Made by a program: the position numbers and the translations under genes. From Ignavibacteriota bacterium (GTDB lineage Bacteria > Bacteroidota > Ignavibacteria > UBA10030), in assembly GCA_003142575.1 (NCBI GenBank), contig PLMS01000111.1:3637-53658 (forward strand): a stretch of DNA of 50,022 bases. Direction: 5' to 3'. Shown piece by piece: positions 33,624 to 50,022 of the stretch (positions within the stretch are counted from its first letter, which is position 1; the number at the start of each line of letters is the position of its first letter). The notes under the pieces are model-generated. The model searched no databases, was not told the DNA's origin, and saw only the letters and a program-made list of their open reading frames with translations.

Positions 33624-34751
33624 ATGAGTTGGTCGTTAATCATAGGACAAGAACGCATCAAAACGCAGCTGAAGCAAACTCTGCAAAACCACCGGATTGC
33701 TCATGCGTATCTTTTCTATGGACCTGAGGGAATCGGAAAAGATGCCCTGGCAATCGAATTCGCAAAAGCCATGAACTGTGAGACCGGGAGCATAGAAGCT
33801 TGCGGTGCATGCAAAAATTGCAGACGGATGGATACATTTCAGTATCCTAATACCAAGCTGGTATTCGCGCTTCCTTCAGGAAAAAGCGAAAAAACTGGTG
33901 ACGATCCAATCACCGTGCTTACCGAAGCACAGGTTGCTGATGTACGGGAACAGATCCAATGGAAAGCAAAAGACCCGTACCATCGCATCGAGGTGCCGAA
34001 AGCAAATTTCATCAAGATTAATAGCGTTCGGGATATTAAGCGTGAGGCGTCTATGAGCCGGACGGAAGAAGGGAAAAAAATATTCGTCATCCTCAACGCA
34101 GATATGATGAATGCAGAGGCAAGTAATTCACTTTTAAAGACTTTGGAAGAACCACTGCCCGGAATAATTCTCCTTTTGACTACATCGGTAAAAGACCAAT
34201 TACTGCCAACGATTATTTCTCGCTGTCAATTGCTTCAGTGCGATTCGTTGCAAGATGCGGAAATTGAAAGTGCTCTCATCAGCAAAGAAGGAGTTGATCA
34301 TTCGATTGCCCGGCTTGCGGCACAACTTTCCCAAGGAAGTTATGGGAATGCACGACGACTCAGTTCATTGAACATGCTCGATGAGCGAAAAGATGTCGTC
34401 GAATTTTTGCGTCTGGTACTTGGCAAGAATAGAGCAACGCTCATCGATGCAATCGATGAACTTGCGTCGTCTTCTGATCGTCCCGGTATTGAGCGGTGGC
34501 TGAAACTTCTCCAGTCATGGTTGCGTGATGCGCTCCTTCTGCAGCAGAACGCGCAAACGCCATTGCTCGACGACGAGAAGAAAAGCATGGAAAGTTTTGT
34601 TACGAAATTTAACCACGCAAATCTCATTGCCTCCATTCAGACTGTCGAGAAGGCGATTGCTCATCTAGACAAAAATGTCTACCTTCATCTTATTCTAACG
34701 ACGTTAGCAATTGATTTACGGAAATTTATAACGGAAGCACCATCAGTATGA
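33624..34751 (+). CDS. holB: DNA polymerase III subunit delta'
   Basis: IIGQERIKTQLKQTLQNHRIAHAYLFYGPEGIGKDALAIEFAKAMNC, CGACKNCRRMD, ADMMNAEASNSLLKTLEEPLPGIILLLTT. Confidence 0.9.
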   Translation: MSWSLIIGQERIKTQLKQTLQNHRIAHAYLFYGPEGIGKDALAIEFAKAMNCETGSIEACGACKNCRRMDTFQYPNTKLVFALPSGKSEKTGDDPITVLTEAQVADVREQIQWKAKDPYHRIEVPKANFIKINSVRDIKREASMSRTEEGKKIFVILNADMMNAEASNSLLKTLEEPLPGIILLLTTSVKDQLLPTIISRCQLLQCDSLQDAEIESALISKEGVDHSIARLAAQLSQGSYGNARRLSSLNMLDERKDVVEFLRLVLGKNRATLIDAIDELASSSDRPGIERWLKLLQSWLRDALLLQQNAQTPLLDDEKKSMESFVTKFNHANLIASIQTVEKAIAHLDKNVYLHLILTTLAIDLRKFITEAPSV

Positions 34752-36817
34752 AGTCTCCTTTCAAACGAATCCTTATTACAGCAGCATTGCCATATGCAAA
34801 CGGATATCTGCACCTTGGTCATCTTGCAGGCGCTTATTTGCCTGCAGATATCTATGCCCGTTATCAACGCATGAAGAAACGTGATGTTCTCTTCCTCTGC
34901 GGCTCCGATGAGCACGGTGTCGCCATTACCGTTTCAGCGGAAAAAGAAAAGACGACGCCAAAGAACATCATCGACCGCTACCATCCAGCCAATAAAGCGG
35001 CATTTGAAGCATTCGAAATGAGTTTTGATAATTACTCGCGTACATCGCTTCCTCTGCATCACGAAACAGCAAAAGATTTTTTTAGGGAATTCCACAAACG
35101 CAGTATTGTGATCGATAAGAAGGCACAACAGTTGTATTGTTTAAAAGATGCCATGTTTCTTGCCGACCGTTATGTTGAAGGTACTTGTCCCAAATGTAAA
35201 TCAACGCAGGCGCGTGGTGATCAATGCGAGAATTGCGGTACGTGGCTGGATCAAACTGAACTCATCGATCCAAAGTGCAAGTTGTGCGGAACGACACCAG
35301 TTGTGAGGGAAACAACACATTGGTACTTTCCGCTCGGGAATTATCAGCAGCGATTGGAATCGTACATCGCTGAACGAGACAAAAGAGATGGTTGGAAAGA
35401 TAATGTTCTTCGGTATTGCGAAGGATGGTTCAAAGATGGATTGAAAGACCGTGCGGTGACGCGCGATCTGAACTGGGGTGTTCACGTGCCGGTTGCCGGA
35501 TACGAAGATAAAGTGATTTACGTCTGGTTCGACGCGGTGCTCGGGTATATTTCATCTGGTAAAGAATGGGCAGCAGCTCACGGAAAACCGGAAGCGTGGA
35601 AAGAATATTGGCAGAAGGAAGACACAAAGTATGTTGCATTTATCGGTAAGGACAATGTTGTGTTTCATTGCATCGTTTTTCCGTCGATGCTGATGGCTTG
35701 GAATGACGGCAATACCGAACACTATGTGCTGCCGGAAAATGTGCCCGCAAATGAGTTTCTCAATTTTGAAGGTCAGAAGTTTTCCAAGAGCCGCGGATGG
35801 GGAATAAATGTTCAAGAATTTCTGAAATTCTTTTCGGCGGATATGCTGCGGTATGCTCTCGCTGTCAATCTGCCTGAAACTCGCGACAGTGATTTTTATC
35901 TGAAAGATTTTCAGGCACGCATCAATAATGAATTGGCGGATATTACCGGAAACTTTGTCAATCGCACGATTGCGTTCATCGATAAGAATTTCGGAGGCAT
36001 TGTACCGAAGCTTGACACGCTCAATAAGCTTGACGAAGAAATGATTGCAGCAGTGAAACAAGCACCATCTACAATTGGCGAGTTATTTGAGCATTACAGC
36101 TTTCGCGAAGGATTGATGGAAGTGATGAATCTCTCCCGCGCCGCGAACAAGTATTTTAATGACAGCGAGCCGTGGAAGACACTGAAATCGAGTCCGGAAC
36201 GCTGTTCAACGACTCTTCATGTTGCAATCCAAATAGTGCGGTCTCTTGCAATTTTGTTGGAACCTGTTGTACCTGCCACTTCCGAAAAAATATGGAAACT
36301 CCTCAATCTCGATATTCCATTGAGAGAAGATGGATGGGATTCTGCATCTGAATTCCGAATCAAAGAAGGACACCAGCTGAACAAACCGGAAATTCTCATA
36401 GCCAAAATTGAGGATAAGCAGATCGACGAGATTGTGAAATTCCTCGAAGGCGGAGACAAGCCTGAAGCTGTTCAAATTTCTCCTCTGAAACCTACGATCA
36501 CGATTGATGATTTTAAAAAGATTGATCTTCGCGTTGGACGAATTATCGAAGCAGAAAAAGTACCCAAGTCTGAAAAACTTATAAAGCTGCAAGTTGAAAT
36601 TGGGAACGAAAGGCGTCAAGTGGTTGCAGGCATTGCCCAGCATTACAAACCGGAGGATTTAATCGGAAAGTTGATCGTCGTTGTCGCGAACCTCCAACCT
36701 GCGAAACTCATGGGGCAGGAGTCGCAAGGCATGATTCTTGCCGCTAGTAATGAATCCGGCATATTAACACTCGTTGGTGTGCAATCGGAAATATCCACAG
36801 GAGCGACTGTGAAGTAA
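34748..36817 (+). CDS. metG: Methionyl-tRNA synthetase with C-terminal tRNA-binding domain
   Basis: LITAALPYANGYLHLGHLAGAYLPADIYARYQR, CPKCKSTQARGDQCENCG, KFSKSRGWGI (KMSKS-like), C-terminal IDDFKKIDLRVGRIIEAEKVPKSEKLIKLQVEIG. Confidence 0.95.
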   Translation: MKSPFKRILITAALPYANGYLHLGHLAGAYLPADIYARYQRMKKRDVLFLCGSDEHGVAITVSAEKEKTTPKNIIDRYHPANKAAFEAFEMSFDNYSRTSLPLHHETAKDFFREFHKRSIVIDKKAQQLYCLKDAMFLADRYVEGTCPKCKSTQARGDQCENCGTWLDQTELIDPKCKLCGTTPVVRETTHWYFPLGNYQQRLESYIAERDKRDGWKDNVLRYCEGWFKDGLKDRAVTRDLNWGVHVPVAGYEDKVIYVWFDAVLGYISSGKEWAAAHGKPEAWKEYWQKEDTKYVAFIGKDNVVFHCIVFPSMLMAWNDGNTEHYVLPENVPANEFLNFEGQKFSKSRGWGINVQEFLKFFSADMLRYALAVNLPETRDSDFYLKDFQARINNELADITGNFVNRTIAFIDKNFGGIVPKLDTLNKLDEEMIAAVKQAPSTIGELFEHYSFREGLMEVMNLSRAANKYFNDSEPWKTLKSSPERCSTTLHVAIQIVRSLAILLEPVVPATSEKIWKLLNLDIPLREDGWDSASEFRIKEGHQLNKPEILIAKIEDKQIDEIVKFLEGGDKPEAVQISPLKPTITIDDFKKIDLRVGRIIEAEKVPKSEKLIKLQVEIGNERRQVVAGIAQHYKPEDLIGKLIVVVANLQPAKLMGQESQGMILAASNESGILTLVGVQSEISTGATVK

Positions 36818-36889: not shown

Positions 36890-37783
36890 ATGAGCAAAAT
36901 GAAATCACTGCTTGGCCCTATGCGAGTACCGTTTTTGATCCTGCCACCTGCGTGTGTTGCTGTGGGCGCAGGAACGGCCTTCTGGCAAACCCATGCAATA
37001 AGCTGGATCCAGGTTTTCATAATTATTCTTGGTGCACTCGCAAGTCATATTAGCGCAAACGCATTTAACGAATATTTTGATTTTAAAAGTGGACTTGACG
37101 CTAAAACTCAACGCACACCATTCAGCGGTGGCAGCGGCACACTACAGGCGCATCCGGAAATGAAGAAAAGCACATTTTATCTTGCCATAGTCTCTTTTGT
37201 TATTACTGCGATAGTGGGGTTCTATTTCATATGGCTGCGAGGTTTCCTCTTATTGCCGCTTGGTATCCTCGGACTGATTTTATTGGTAACATATACTATT
37301 TGGTGGGCATATAATCCGATCCTCTGTTTGATAGCGCCGGGATTGGGCTTCGGAGTTTTCATGGTTATGGGGACACACTTCTGTTTGACGGGTTCATACA
37401 GCTGGATATCCTTCGTTGCATCTCTTGTTCCTACATTTCTTGTGAGCGACTTGCTGCTGCTCAATCAATTTCCTGATGTGGATGCCGATAAAAGCATCGG
37501 ACGCAAACATTTTCCTATTACCATAGGGCGGCAAGCCAGCGCTGTACTCTATGGCGTCTTCTTGCTGCTTGCGTATGTTTCGGTAGTGATCGGTGTGATT
37601 TTTGTTTTACTGCCTCGCTATAGCCTGCTTACTCTCATAACAGTTATCCCTGCTTGGAAAGCCTATCGGGGTGCATATCAAAACGCTGAAAATATCCCTT
37701 CCCTGATTCCCTCGATGGGCCTAAACGTAGTTATCAATTTGACAACACCGATTTTACTCGCTGTGGGACTTTTTATCGGATAA
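36890..37783 (+). CDS. UbiA-family prenyltransferase (MenA/MqnP-like)
   Basis: NAFNEYFDFKSGLDAKTQRTPFSGGSGTLQ and LLLNQFPDVDADKSIGRKHFPITIGRQ aspartate-rich motifs; multiple TMs. Confidence 0.85.
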   Translation: MSKMKSLLGPMRVPFLILPPACVAVGAGTAFWQTHAISWIQVFIIILGALASHISANAFNEYFDFKSGLDAKTQRTPFSGGSGTLQAHPEMKKSTFYLAIVSFVITAIVGFYFIWLRGFLLLPLGILGLILLVTYTIWWAYNPILCLIAPGLGFGVFMVMGTHFCLTGSYSWISFVASLVPTFLVSDLLLLNQFPDVDADKSIGRKHFPITIGRQASAVLYGVFLLLAYVSVVIGVIFVLLPRYSLLTLITVIPAWKAYRGAYQNAENIPSLIPSMGLNVVINLTTPILLAVGLFIG

Positions 37784-37944
37784 TAGATCAAACAACTCAA
37801 AGGTATGACGCATATAGATGTAGTACAGATTTGAAAGTTAGAAGAATTTCAAGAATTGCTTTTAGAAATTGAAAAATTAGGACGCGTGTGACCTCAACCT
37901 GACCTTCCATCATAAGGAATGAGATACTATTCGTAAGCAGAGCT

Positions 37945-38775
37945 ATGCCGGAACAATTGCTAAAAAAATGTGAAGAGTTAATAACCAGCGGAACTCGATT
38001 AGCGCCGCAAGGAGGATTCGAGGCATCCGGGTATAATGCACGATTACAGAATAAATATTTGGATTGGCGCAAAGCATGTTTGGAAACGTTCGAGTCATCC
38101 GGACCAATTGGATTCCCATACAAACAAAAAATTCTTGGCGATAAAAACGGCGGATTCTTTTTTCAGCCATCCGCCCAGTTGATTCTCAACTGTATGCGCG
38201 AACTGTACGAAAAAGTAAAAGCTTCGCCCGATCTCGCATCGGCTCCGGCTGCTCCGGTCATGGATATTCCGACGCCGACAGTTCAGACTGCAACAGACGC
38301 CGGAGGAGTTCGAGTATTGAAACCGCCTCCGAAACACACAGCGCCGATACCTGCTCAACCTTCTGCATATCCGCAGGATGCTGCGCATACCAGTAAAGTG
38401 TATGTTGTTGGGGAAGCAGATGATCCGCTCCGTGTGCAGTTGCTGCAATTTCTCGGAGAAATTGGAATAGAGGAAATTGATATCGAACGTCAACACGGAC
38501 AGATGCTTCCGCTTGAGACACTTCAGGTTGATGCGGGCGTACGGTTTGCATTCTTTATCATCAACCCGGACGATCTTGCGTATGCAATGTTCGAGCTTGG
38601 GCATTTCGTCGGAAAGCTTGGCAAGAATCGTGTTTGTGTTCTCCATATGTCGGATGTTGAATTTCCCAAAAACGTACCGGGCGTGTTGGAGAAATCGATC
38701 GTGATCAAGTTGGAAGAAGCGAGCTTTGGATTATTGAAAGATCTTAAAGCATCGGGGTATCAAATAAATTTGTAG
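37945..38775 (+). CDS. Protein with C-terminal TIR-like predicted nucleotide-binding domain (PF10137/CAP12-type)
   Basis: KVYVVGEADDPLRVQLLQFLGEIGIEEIDIERQ...AFFIINPDDLAYAMFELGHFVGKLGKNRVCVLHMSDVEFPKNVPGVLEKSIVIKLEEASFGLLKDLKASGYQINL. About 100-aa N-terminal domain and Pro/Ala-rich linker. Confidence 0.75.
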   Translation: MPEQLLKKCEELITSGTRLAPQGGFEASGYNARLQNKYLDWRKACLETFESSGPIGFPYKQKILGDKNGGFFFQPSAQLILNCMRELYEKVKASPDLASAPAAPVMDIPTPTVQTATDAGGVRVLKPPPKHTAPIPAQPSAYPQDAAHTSKVYVVGEADDPLRVQLLQFLGEIGIEEIDIERQHGQMLPLETLQVDAGVRFAFFIINPDDLAYAMFELGHFVGKLGKNRVCVLHMSDVEFPKNVPGVLEKSIVIKLEEASFGLLKDLKASGYQINL

Positions 38776-39296
38776 CAGCAAAAAAGGCACTTCTGCCGAT
38801 TGGCTGAATGTCATGCGCATTGCACAGAATATTGGATTTAAAACAACGGCGACAATGATGTACGGACATCTCGAAACAGAAGAGGATATTGTAGAGCATC
38901 TCGAAAGTATCCGCCAGCTGCAGGATGAGACCGGCGGGTTCACTGCCTTCGTTCCGTGGTCATTTAAGCCCGGTAACACGCCTCTAGAGAAGATTATTCC
39001 GCATTATGCTACTCTTTACACGGTATCTGCAGATGATCGCCTTCTCACGCGTTTATTTAGACAATTTTCAGCATATTCAGGCATCGTGGTTTTCAGAAGG
39101 GAAGAAGATCGGTCAGATTGCTTTGCACTTTGGCGGAACATTGCTTGAAGAGAATGTGCATGCGGCTGCTAATTTTATCAATACAACCAACGCCGAAGAG
39201 TGCAGGAACCTGATACGGGAATCAGGATTTATCCCGGCACAACGTACAACGCTGTACGAAATTTTCAAAGTAGAAGAAAAATCCGCTGCAGCGTGA
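38771..39296 (+). pseudogene. mqnC: Truncated, frameshifted mqnC (dehypoxanthine futalosine cyclase) remnant
   Basis: SSKKGTSADWLNVMRIAQNIGFKTTATMMYGHLETEEDIVEHLESIRQLQDETGGFTAFVPWSFKPGNTPLEK, then shifts frame to YLQMIAFSRVYLDNFQHIQASWFSEGKKIGQIALHFGGTLLEENVHAAA. The 5' radical-SAM portion is absent. Confidence 0.85.
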
Positions 39297-46634: not shown

Positions 46635-46785
46635 TAAAGAAAAGAATATGGTTCATTTCATAAACGAAATGGAAACGAGGGTTGAACAAGATAGAAGGTT
46701 TGCATAACTTCTTAGCATATGCCATAAGGGGATTATGTGGCTCACCGATGGCATTTGACCAAATGTGTTATCAGATCTTAATAAT

Positions 46786-49578
46786 ATGATAAACCAAACA
46801 CCTGAACAACATGCGCGTGATTTAATCGACAAGCAGCTTACTGCTTCGGGTTGGGTTGTACAAAGCAAAGATAAAATCAATCTGGGGGCAGGTGTGGGCG
46901 TTGCAGTTCGGGAATATCAAACGGATATTGGCCCCGCCGATTATATTCTTTTTGTGAACAAGAAACCGGTTGGTGTTATTGAAGCCAAGCGAAAAGAAGA
47001 AGGCATACATTTAACTGTTCATGAAACACAGACAGAAGATTATGCGACTTCAAAACTGAAATACCTGCACAATGAACCGCTCGTGTTTTTGTACGAAAGC
47101 ACCGGTGATGTTACCCGATTTACAGATTATACCGACCCTAAACCCCGCTCACGTGAAGTGTTCTCTTTCCATCGCCCCGAGACGTTTAGCGATTGTATAC
47201 AACGAGGTTCCTCGCTACGCAAACGATTATTGAGCTTGCCCGCTTTGCCTACGGAAGGATTGCGCGAATGTCAGATACGAGCAATTAACAATCTGGAGGT
47301 ATCATTTAAGGAAAACCGTCCCCGCGCGCTGATACAAATGGCAACCGGATCGGGCAAGACATTTACGGCAATTACCTCCGTGTATCGCTTGCTTAAATAT
47401 GCCGGAGCCAAGCGCATCCTCTTCTTAGTCGATACAAAAAACTTAGGTGAACAAGCCGAACAGGAATTTCTAGCGTACCAGCCAAATGACGACAATCGCA
47501 GATTCACCGAGTTGTATAACGTTCAGCGATTACGAAGCAATTTCGTTCCGGGTGACGCGCAGGTGTGCATCAGCACCATTCAACGGTTGTATTCGATATT
47601 AAAAGAAACAGAATTAGATGAAAGCGCTGAAGAGCAAAATCCGAACGAGCGTAAGTTCCAGCCGAAAGAACCCGTGCCCGTTGTCTACAACGGAAAAGTG
47701 CCGATAGAGTTTTTTGATTTCATCGTGATCGATGAATGCCATCGCAGCATTTACAATTTGTGGAAACAGGTGCTTGATTATTTCGACAGCTTCCTGATTG
47801 GACTTACGGCAACACCTGACAACAGGACATTCGGGTTCTTCAATCAAAATATCGTGAGCGAATACACACACGAAGAAGCCGTAATGGACGGCGTGAATGT
47901 CGGCAGCGATGTTTTTATTATCGAAACCGATATTTCCAAAAAAGGAAGCGTTGTCTGGAAAGGACAGTATGTTGATCATCGTGATAAATTGACCCGCAAG
48001 AAACGCTGGATGCAATCGGATGAGGATGTGACGTACTCGGCAAAGCAGTTGGATGACACGGTTGTGAACACTAATCAGATCCGCCTTATTGTTAAAACTC
48101 TGAAAGAACATTTCCCTGAAATATTCCCTGAACGGTTTGATACTGACGGCAAGTTTGAAGTTCCGAAAACGCTTATATTTGCAAAGTCCGATTCGCATGC
48201 CGATGATATTATCCAGATTGTGAGGGAAGAATTTGCGGAAGAAAATAAATTCTGCAAGAAGATCACCTACACCGCGGATGATCCAAAAAGTGTACTCAGG
48301 CAATTCCGCCTCGACTATTATCCGCGTATAGCCGTCACTGTGGATATGATCGCAACGGGAACCGATGTGCGCCCGCTGGAGTGTTTGTTCTTTATGCGCG
48401 ATGTGAAAAGCCGCAACTATTTTGAGCAGATGAAAGGGCGCGGAACGCGGACCATTACTTTAGACGAATTGAAGAAAGTAACACCAAGCGCAAAATACAC
48501 CAAGGACCATTTTGTGATTGTGGATGCCATCGGTGTTACAAAAAGTTTAAAGACCGACAGCCGTCCGCTAGAAAAGAAACCTTCCGTGCCGTTAAAAGAT
48601 CTGCTTGGCGCGGTTGCGGTAGGGGCACGGGACGAAGACTTGTTCACTTCGCTTGCAAACCGTTTGATACGGCTTGAAAAACAAATCAGCGAATCAGAAC
48701 GGACACTGGTGGTCGAAAAAACACTGGGAAAATCTCTTGCACAAATAGCAAAAGAATTACTCCATGCCTACAATCCTGATGTGGTGGAAGAGTTAGAAGA
48801 AAAAGTAAAGAAGAGCATGCCGGGAGAATCTCCGGTTGCAATTGAATCCGCAATTCGACAAAAACATTCTGCAATTATAGAAGAAGCGGCAAAAGTGTTT
48901 ACGGGAGAATTAAATGCCTACATCGAAAATGTTCGCAAGACGCAAGAGCAGCTGATCGATACGATTAATCCGGATAAAATTACTGCTGTTGGCTGGGATG
49001 GGCAGAATAAAGCGATGGCGAATGAGTTGATACAGGAGTTTACCGCGTGGATAGATGCGCACAAGAATGAAATTATCGCATTGCAGATTTTCTATAACCA
49101 GCCGTATCGCAGGCGCGAGTTGACGTATGCGATGATCAAAGAAGTCTCGGACAAGCTGAAAAGCGATAAACCTGCGCTGGAGCCGCTGCGGTTGTGGAGT
49201 GCGTACGAACAGCAGGAAAATCCTCTTGCAGGTTCTGCTCAGAGTAGTTCGCCAAAGACGGAATTGATTGCGCTCGTTTCCCTCTTGCGCAAAGTGACCG
49301 GCATTGATAAAGTTCTTTCTCTGTACGATAAAACGGTTGATAAGAATTTCCAGGAATGGGTTTTTAAAAAGCAGGCGGGCGCTCTCAAGTTTACGGAAGA
49401 GCAAATGCAGTGGCTGAGAATGATTAAAGACTATGTGGCGACCAGTTTTCATATTGAGAAAGACGATTTTGCATTGTCTCCTTTTGGAGATAACGGCGGA
49501 TTGGGAAGAATGTGGGAGTTATTTGGCGAAAAGACAGATGAGATTATTAACGAATTGAATGAGACGTTGGCGGCATAA
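46786..49578 (+). CDS. hsdR: Type I restriction endonuclease subunit R
   Basis: GVIEAKR nuclease motif, ALIQMATGSGKTFTAITSVYRLL (Walker A), VIDECHRSIY (DECH), LTATPDNR, IAVTVDMIATGTDVRPLECLFFMRDVKSRNYFEQMKGRGTR. ATG at 46786 preferred over ORF-track 46765. Confidence 0.94.
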   Translation: MINQTPEQHARDLIDKQLTASGWVVQSKDKINLGAGVGVAVREYQTDIGPADYILFVNKKPVGVIEAKRKEEGIHLTVHETQTEDYATSKLKYLHNEPLVFLYESTGDVTRFTDYTDPKPRSREVFSFHRPETFSDCIQRGSSLRKRLLSLPALPTEGLRECQIRAINNLEVSFKENRPRALIQMATGSGKTFTAITSVYRLLKYAGAKRILFLVDTKNLGEQAEQEFLAYQPNDDNRRFTELYNVQRLRSNFVPGDAQVCISTIQRLYSILKETELDESAEEQNPNERKFQPKEPVPVVYNGKVPIEFFDFIVIDECHRSIYNLWKQVLDYFDSFLIGLTATPDNRTFGFFNQNIVSEYTHEEAVMDGVNVGSDVFIIETDISKKGSVVWKGQYVDHRDKLTRKKRWMQSDEDVTYSAKQLDDTVVNTNQIRLIVKTLKEHFPEIFPERFDTDGKFEVPKTLIFAKSDSHADDIIQIVREEFAEENKFCKKITYTADDPKSVLRQFRLDYYPRIAVTVDMIATGTDVRPLECLFFMRDVKSRNYFEQMKGRGTRTITLDELKKVTPSAKYTKDHFVIVDAIGVTKSLKTDSRPLEKKPSVPLKDLLGAVAVGARDEDLFTSLANRLIRLEKQISESERTLVVEKTLGKSLAQIAKELLHAYNPDVVEELEEKVKKSMPGESPVAIESAIRQKHSAIIEEAAKVFTGELNAYIENVRKTQEQLIDTINPDKITAVGWDGQNKAMANELIQEFTAWIDAHKNEIIALQIFYNQPYRRRELTYAMIKEVSDKLKSDKPALEPLRLWSAYEQQENPLAGSAQSSSPKTELIALVSLLRKVTGIDKVLSLYDKTVDKNFQEWVFKKQAGALKFTEEQMQWLRMIKDYVATSFHIEKDDFALSPFGDNGGLGRMWELFGEKTDEIINELNETLAA

Positions 49579-49579
49579 G

Positions 49580-50022
49580 ATGATTGAAGAGAATGAATTA
49601 CCCAAAGCGTGGAAACTTGTAAAACTTCGAGAAGTCCTTTCTGCCCTTGAAAGTGGTAAAAGACCTAAAGGTGGTGTACAAAGGATTGAATCAGGAATAC
49701 CAAGTATTGGAGCCGAACACTTAAATAATGAAGGAGGTTTTAAATTTTCAAAAATAAAATTCGTTCCAAAAGAATTTGCTGATTCTATGCAAAGAGGTAA
49801 AATACGCTTAAATGATATCATCGTCGTAAAAGATGGAGCAACAACAGGTAAAACGAGTTTTGTAGGAAAAGATTATCCCTTTGATAATTCTGTTATCAAT
49901 GAACATGTATTTATTTGTAGGGCTGCTGAAAATGCAGACTCCAAATACATTTTCTACAATATGTTTTCTGAAAAAGGAAAGAATCAAATCCTTGAAGACT
50001 TCAGAGGCGCCGCCCAAGGAGG
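49580..50022 (+). CDS. hsdS: Type I restriction specificity subunit S (partial, runs off window)
   Basis: Translated by hand: MIEENELPKAWKLVKLREVLSALESGKRPKGGVQRIESGIPSIGAEHLNNEGGFKFSKIKFVP...LNDIIVVKDGATTGKTSFV...; missing from the ORF track because no stop lies in the window. Confidence 0.88.
   Translation, partial: MIEENELPKAWKLVKLREVLSALESGKRPKGGVQRIESGIPSIGAEHLNNEGGFKFSKIKFVPKEFADSMQRGKIRLNDIIVVKDGATTGKTSFVGKDYPFDNSVINEHVFICRAAENADSKYIFYNMFSEKGKNQILEDFRGAAQG

Follow-up and report, generated by a model that had tools for sequence, protein, structure and literature searches.

A TIR-like protein of 276 residues, encoded by an Ignavibacteriota bacterium, is on a modest balance of probability a domesticated, NADase-inactive TIR protein that serves a housekeeping role as a constitutive, non-toxic adaptor or ligand sensor. 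Its gene lies in a 50,022-nucleotide stretch of contig PLMS01000111.1 (hereafter the window), and in relatives it sits inside an operon for menaquinone synthesis by the futalosine pathway. Within the family of the window genome (f1), the gene is conserved as a single copy, has lost motifs of the NAD pocket, and is retained in genomes from which the operon has disappeared. The features of the window discussed below are:

34748..36817, + strand, metG, an upstream neighbor conserved in f1
36890..37783, + strand, UbiA-family prenyltransferase, MenA-like, scoring below NCBIfam cut-offs, in the place held in relatives by mqnP-ubiX-ubiD-mqnE-mqnA
37839..37944, + strand, decayed tail of mqnA, reading ..EEFQELLLEIEKL.., colinear with locus L038 at 82% DNA identity
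37945..38775, + strand, TIR-like (PF10137) core protein of 276 residues, whole open reading frame with stop codon
37945..38229, + strand, N-terminal predicted helical domain (residues 1-95) with the motif GGFE-SGYNA--Q--Y--WRK-CL, the most conserved part of the protein
38230..38388, + strand, Pro/Ala-rich, predicted disordered linker (residues 96-148), with an LKPPPK motif in nearly all f1 members
38389..38772, + strand, TIR-fold domain (residues 149-276), with the loop before FELG deleted
38593..38595, + strand, codon of Glu217, the counterpart of catalytic E84 of SfSTING, Glu in 29 of 30 members
38774..39293, + strand, mqnC remnant, codons 187-364 only, frameshifted and with its 5' half gone

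The reading frame begins with ATG, as the preliminary description had it, and its initial residues are conserved among relatives. That description, made from the letters alone, had assigned the C-terminal part to the TIR-like family PF10137, and the assignment holds. Residues 151-249 match Pfam PF10137 (CAP12-PCTIR_TIR; E 3.1e-9, 37.3 bits vs. a cut-off of 24.7), as do 29 of 30 relatives at E ≤ 0.01, and TIR-STING is the top PDB match (E 8e-4) of an AlphaFold2 model built from a 30-sequence alignment. In the model (mean pLDDT 78, and 80-91 in the TIR block), residues 2-93 form a helical domain and residues 151-269 an alternating alpha/beta domain, joined by a disordered linker at approximately 100-147. 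Profile-profile comparison with ten canonical PF10137 proteins gave a probability of 99.7%, over the C-terminal 132 residues only, and sequence searches of solved structures with the operon TIR family returned no significant match.

The N-terminal domain, initially described as unassigned, indeed matched no Pfam family over residues 1-95. A search of its fold against the PDB also returned nothing significant, which is weak evidence as the query was a single-sequence model. The possibility that this domain is common to the canonical proteins of the PADLOC candidate system PDC-S35 was rejected at a homology probability of 5%. The Pro/Ala linker is likewise present, and the persistence of LKPPPK in f1 within an otherwise unalignable linker suggests a putative binding site. 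Models of PDC-S35 flag the protein over residues 141-275 only (67 bits), leaving the N-terminal region unmatched, compared with a score of 297 over the whole length of a canonical protein (L070) and 85 bits over residues 7-260 of a distant member (L064). The NCBIfam Cap12 models score 15 on the protein against a cut-off of 450.

In SfSTING, NAD is coordinated through its phosphodiester and ribose by S10, R78, and N80; the catalytic residue is E84, and NADase activity requires the BB loop (PMC9402430). The ten canonical relatives all retain the motifs HG[HR], RARxN[VI]xxE, and PSD, and nine of them retain GxT[IV][IV]E. In the operon family, HGH has become VIGE or similar, GxTIIEKFE is replaced, and PSD has lost its serine and nearly lost its aspartate. 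The shortened loop pointed out at the start is real, since the stretch 'NPDDLAYAMFELG' is without the segment that bears RARxNV in canonical relatives. Deletion of the loop in front of FELG has removed the RxN pair (6 and 4 residues before the Glu; counterparts of R78 and N80 in SfSTING), which occurs in 0 of 30 members, compared with 10 of 10 canonical relatives. By the features expected of a catalytic NADase of the CAP12/Pycsar type, the family has therefore kept the Glu and lost RxN. The one member in which Glu217 is missing belongs to a genome (G096) with an intact operon. Conservation has also been gained in a family-specific manner, at KLEE (255-258), H234, R182, and the N-terminal SGYNA--Q--Y--WRK-CL region.

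These substitutions suggest that the NAD pocket of the operon TIR protein is largely dismantled and that the protein is probably NADase-inactive, and with such a pocket the destruction of NAD is most likely absent. Against inactivity, the retention of Glu in 29 of 30 members is odd without a chemical role, although the residue may be structural. Moreover, loss of RxN alone is no proof of inactivity, by analogy with a TIR-STING relative of Dictyostelium whose activity is kept in a Glu mutant under crowding (PMC13142454). A genome of the same genus (G181) carries a canonical PF10137 protein in which HGHD and RARQNV are both intact (L073, 641-1513, - strand), which provides a natural active-site control.

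The protein resembles several known systems in part. With the stand-alone PF10137 'nucleotide-binding protein' genes of chromosomes, plasmids, and phages that PADLOC groups as PDC-S35, it shares the C-terminal TIR fold (hhalign, 99.7%), a helical region before the TIR domain, and the lack of a cyclase partner. It differs in an N-terminal domain that is not demonstrably homologous (5%), in the lost NAD-pocket motifs, and in being encoded by a core, syntenic, and vertical gene, whereas PDC-S35/PF10137 genes are patchy. The fold and the position of the catalytic Glu are shared with TIR-STING/Cap12 (SfSTING, PDB 7un8 and 9lmq), but the window protein lacks the STING domain, a CD-NTase neighbor, and the R78/N80 counterparts, and its pre-Glu loop is deleted. 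With the Pycsar effector PycTIR it has the PF10137 TIR domain in common, but it has neither a match to a cyclic-nucleotide-binding domain nor a pyrimidine cyclase, and PycTIR retains ARDNV before the Glu. The Dictyostelium proteins TirB, TirC, and TirD offer a further parallel, as PF10137-type TIR domains that have left a defense setting and been domesticated behind a new N-terminus; in the study concerned, no NADase activity was seen for TirB or TirD, while TirC remains a toxic NADase (PMC13142454). Those proteins are eukaryotic and recent, whereas the present case lies within bacteria and inside a metabolic operon.

The surroundings of the gene offer little for an effector of the CBASS or Pycsar type. 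No cyclase adjoins it, as had been stated at the outset, and its neighbors are metG, the UbiA-family gene, and the mqnC remnant; a STING, SAVED, or cNMP sensor domain is also absent. The Type I restriction-modification locus reported approximately 8 kb downstream is present (46765-50022), with HsdR at 46765-49578 and HsdS starting at 49559 and running off the window end. However, nothing links this locus to the TIR gene, and the proposed defense neighborhood is not borne out.

In relatives, the TIR gene is part of a metabolic operon. Locus L003 reads metG - mqnP - ubiX - ubiD - mqnE/mqnA fusion - TIR gene - mqnC, with mqnD and ubiE nearby, and the order mqnA-TIR-mqnC was found in all 23 loci measured in f1 and a sister family (f3). 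The gaps around the TIR gene in these loci are 2-252 nt before and 2-143 nt after it, the latter being 2-22 nt in all f1 loci except one. Three other families of the order (f2, f4, and f5) have the operon in the same order without the TIR gene, with mqnA and mqnC spaced by 6-100 nt in most. In two genomes (G223 and G150), the mqnA-mqnC junction carries what look by eye like RelE/ParE-type toxin-antitoxin pairs; TIR-less junctions with such genes or other small cassettes are exemplified by L132 (5888-6972), L134 (2521-3667), and L133 (5842-7513). The junction seems to accept insertions.

The window itself holds a decayed mqn operon around an intact TIR gene. The preliminary description had treated the gene as stand-alone, overlooking the MenA-like UbiA gene and the broken mqnC. 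It had also named syntenic housekeeping homologs as a sign against its defense reading, and in genomic context this is what the 23 loci contain. An earlier stage of decay is seen in a sister species (G212; L002, 7675-9940), where mqnD is still intact, mqnC is frameshifted, and a tail of mqnA remains, such that the loss of a futalosine operon is caught at two stages, the window (37839-39293) keeping only half of mqnC. A MenA-like UbiA gene stands at the former mqn site in the window genome (G000), G212, and G192. Horizontal transfer of this gene, which is 94-95% identical between species, was considered, but regional DNA identity gave no clear support and it is not claimed.

The place between mqnA/mqnE and mqnC raises the possibility that the protein is a metabolic N-glycosidase, a TIR/NDT-fold stand-in for a missing MqnB or MTAN, with Glu217 acting on a nucleoside instead of NAD. 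Cleavage of N-glycosidic bonds is common to the TIR and nucleoside deoxyribosyltransferase folds. Amongst the mqn-bearing genomes of the order (f1-f5; e.g., L095, L124, and L130), no evident MqnB or MTAN, and hence no assignable enzyme for aminofutalosine hydrolysis, was found among the typed PF01048 proteins, the main ones being purine nucleoside phosphorylases, although some genomes have a third, weaker, untyped PF01048 match. The conserved Glu217 and a faint similarity of two members to Nuc_deoxyri_tr2 would also fit such an enzyme. However, f2, f4, and f5 share the operon, are likewise without evident MqnB in the genomes checked, and yet have no TIR gene, while the TIR gene persists in seven genomes without mqn genes and Glu is lost in G096 despite an intact operon. 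Furthermore, SAH hydrolase is encoded in all 23 genomes checked, and therefore SAH recycling of the MTAN type is unneeded. A metabolic N-glycosidase is decidedly improbable, and replacement of MqnB or MTAN in particular was rejected, as TIR-less relatives are equally without an evident MqnB and the gene outlives the operon.

A profile search of f1 detected the TIR gene in 31 of 32 genomes, including all 26 of good quality, and the only genome without it is 55% complete. The gene is single copy at a fixed site. The genomes are mostly metagenome-assembled, and whole-genome absences refer to profile searches. Individual copies show an in-gene stop codon (G246, possibly an assembly error), a stretch of 11 undetermined bases (N) in the linker (G184), and a split into two frames around the linker (G270). 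Across 294 genomes sampled from the class, the N-terminal domain occurs only in f1 and f3, barring one marginal match (E 8e-4) whose reading frame contains a stop codon, and no full-length copy was found in the class outside these two families. In f3 the gene is present in 10 of 13 sampled genomes; of the three without it, two lack mqnC/E entirely and one has mqnC at a contig end. Outside f1 and f3 only the TIR part occurs, in a patchy manner that includes genes on plasmids and a few genes of E. coli phages that carry a TIR-like annotation. No full-length copy was found on plasmids or in phages, and 42 pattern matches in IMG/VR viral contigs included no relatives.

Distances between TIR proteins correlate with those between the neighboring Mqn proteins (Mantel r 0.35-0.55 overall and 0.55-0.63 within f1, values reached by no more than 8 of 2000 permutations). 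These moderate correlations agree with largely vertical inheritance, as expected of a gene that, judged from its sequence distribution, is a vertically inherited core gene and not a patchy mobile one; the patchy, mobile distribution typical of defense genes was not observed. An active defense effector, i.e., a phage-triggered TIR NADase that senses through its N-terminal domain and has been fixed as a core gene, would explain the PF10137 membership, the match to the PADLOC candidate PDC-S35, the retained Glu217, and the TIR-STING fold. We regard it as very improbable, because the RxN, HGH, GxTIIEKFE, and PSD motifs are lost, neither a cyclase nor a defense partner adjoins, and the gene is universal, single-copy, syntenic, and vertical where canonical PF10137 genes are patchy. 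Hence, the TIR-like domain and the novelty of the N-terminus in the preliminary description stand, and the implied defense role does not, given a vertical core gene at a fixed operon site without the NAD-coordinating residues of characterized PF10137 effectors.

Seven f1 genomes are without intact mqnE and mqnC (the window genome G000, G212, G192, G053, G089, G184, and G599), and all seven have kept the TIR gene. Occurrence of the gene thus does not follow the futalosine pathway, being retained in these mqn-less genomes and absent from mqn-bearing f2, f4, and f5. MenD was not found in the six tested (G000, G212, G192, G053, G089, and G184), and the idea that the gene is retained because these genomes changed to the classical Men pathway was rejected, MenD being found in no f1 genome tested. 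The window genome and the six others retain complex I (NuoH) despite the lost mqnE and mqnC. Each of the seven also has an extra PF02621 protein elsewhere.

Two mqn-less genomes of one genus (G089 and G184) have TIR proteins that are 73-77% identical, with near-saturated synonymous divergence and a pN/pS of 0.18-0.26, similar to their metG (73% identical, pN/pS 0.25). The parsimonious reading of these values is that purifying selection on the TIR protein has continued after loss of the operon. Between the window genome and G212, the dN/dS of the TIR protein is 0.12 overall, 0.05 in the N-terminal domain, and 0.09 in the TIR domain, but that of the mqnC remnant is also low (0.03), and therefore decay in this pair is too recent to inform on retention.

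Such recent decay would also fit a protein that serves only to regulate the menaquinone enzymes or to assist their assembly, kept after loss of the pathway for lack of time only. The tight packing of the operon and the absence of the TIR gene from the two f3 genomes without mqnC/E point in the same direction. However, the mqn genes are traceless in G089/G184 and G053, and the protein is conserved in mqn-less lineages where synonymous sites are near saturation, which makes a role confined to menaquinone synthesis quite unlikely. The literature search found no work linking futalosine with Ignavibacteria or menaquinone with TIR, or treating PDC-S35.

By analogy, an adaptor or sensor role is most likely for the domesticated protein. 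We infer from the combined comparisons that a PF10137 TIR domain was inserted between mqnA and mqnC in a common ancestor of f1 and f3, two families within a single uncultured Ignavibacteria-like order. The inserted domain would then have been domesticated as the TIR-fold part of a protein whose new N-terminal helical bundle is joined to it by a disordered Pro/Ala linker. As the NAD pocket is largely dismantled, this protein most likely does not consume NAD. The helical domain and a face of the TIR domain may bind partners. Because the TIR gene appears to be under purifying selection where the mqn genes are lost, its role is probably tied to respiration or redox physiology and not to one step of menaquinone synthesis. 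A bolder and unlikely reading gives the TIR fold a core or even essential place in central redox metabolism, either as an enzyme (e.g., a glycohydrolase of nucleosides or nucleotides) or as a sensor (e.g., of quinone or NAD(H) status, with a new N-terminal input domain); if true, this would represent the bacterial domestication of an immune TIR domain into housekeeping.

The routine annotation of PF10137 genes in prokaryotes is that of anti-phage effectors, and that label is probably wrong for the whole operon family. With close canonical relatives and a defined active-site deletion, the family would be a clear example of how an immune effector domain can be domesticated into the core physiology of bacteria, and the lineages that have naturally lost the operon allow the role of the TIR protein to be asked without menaquinone synthesis.
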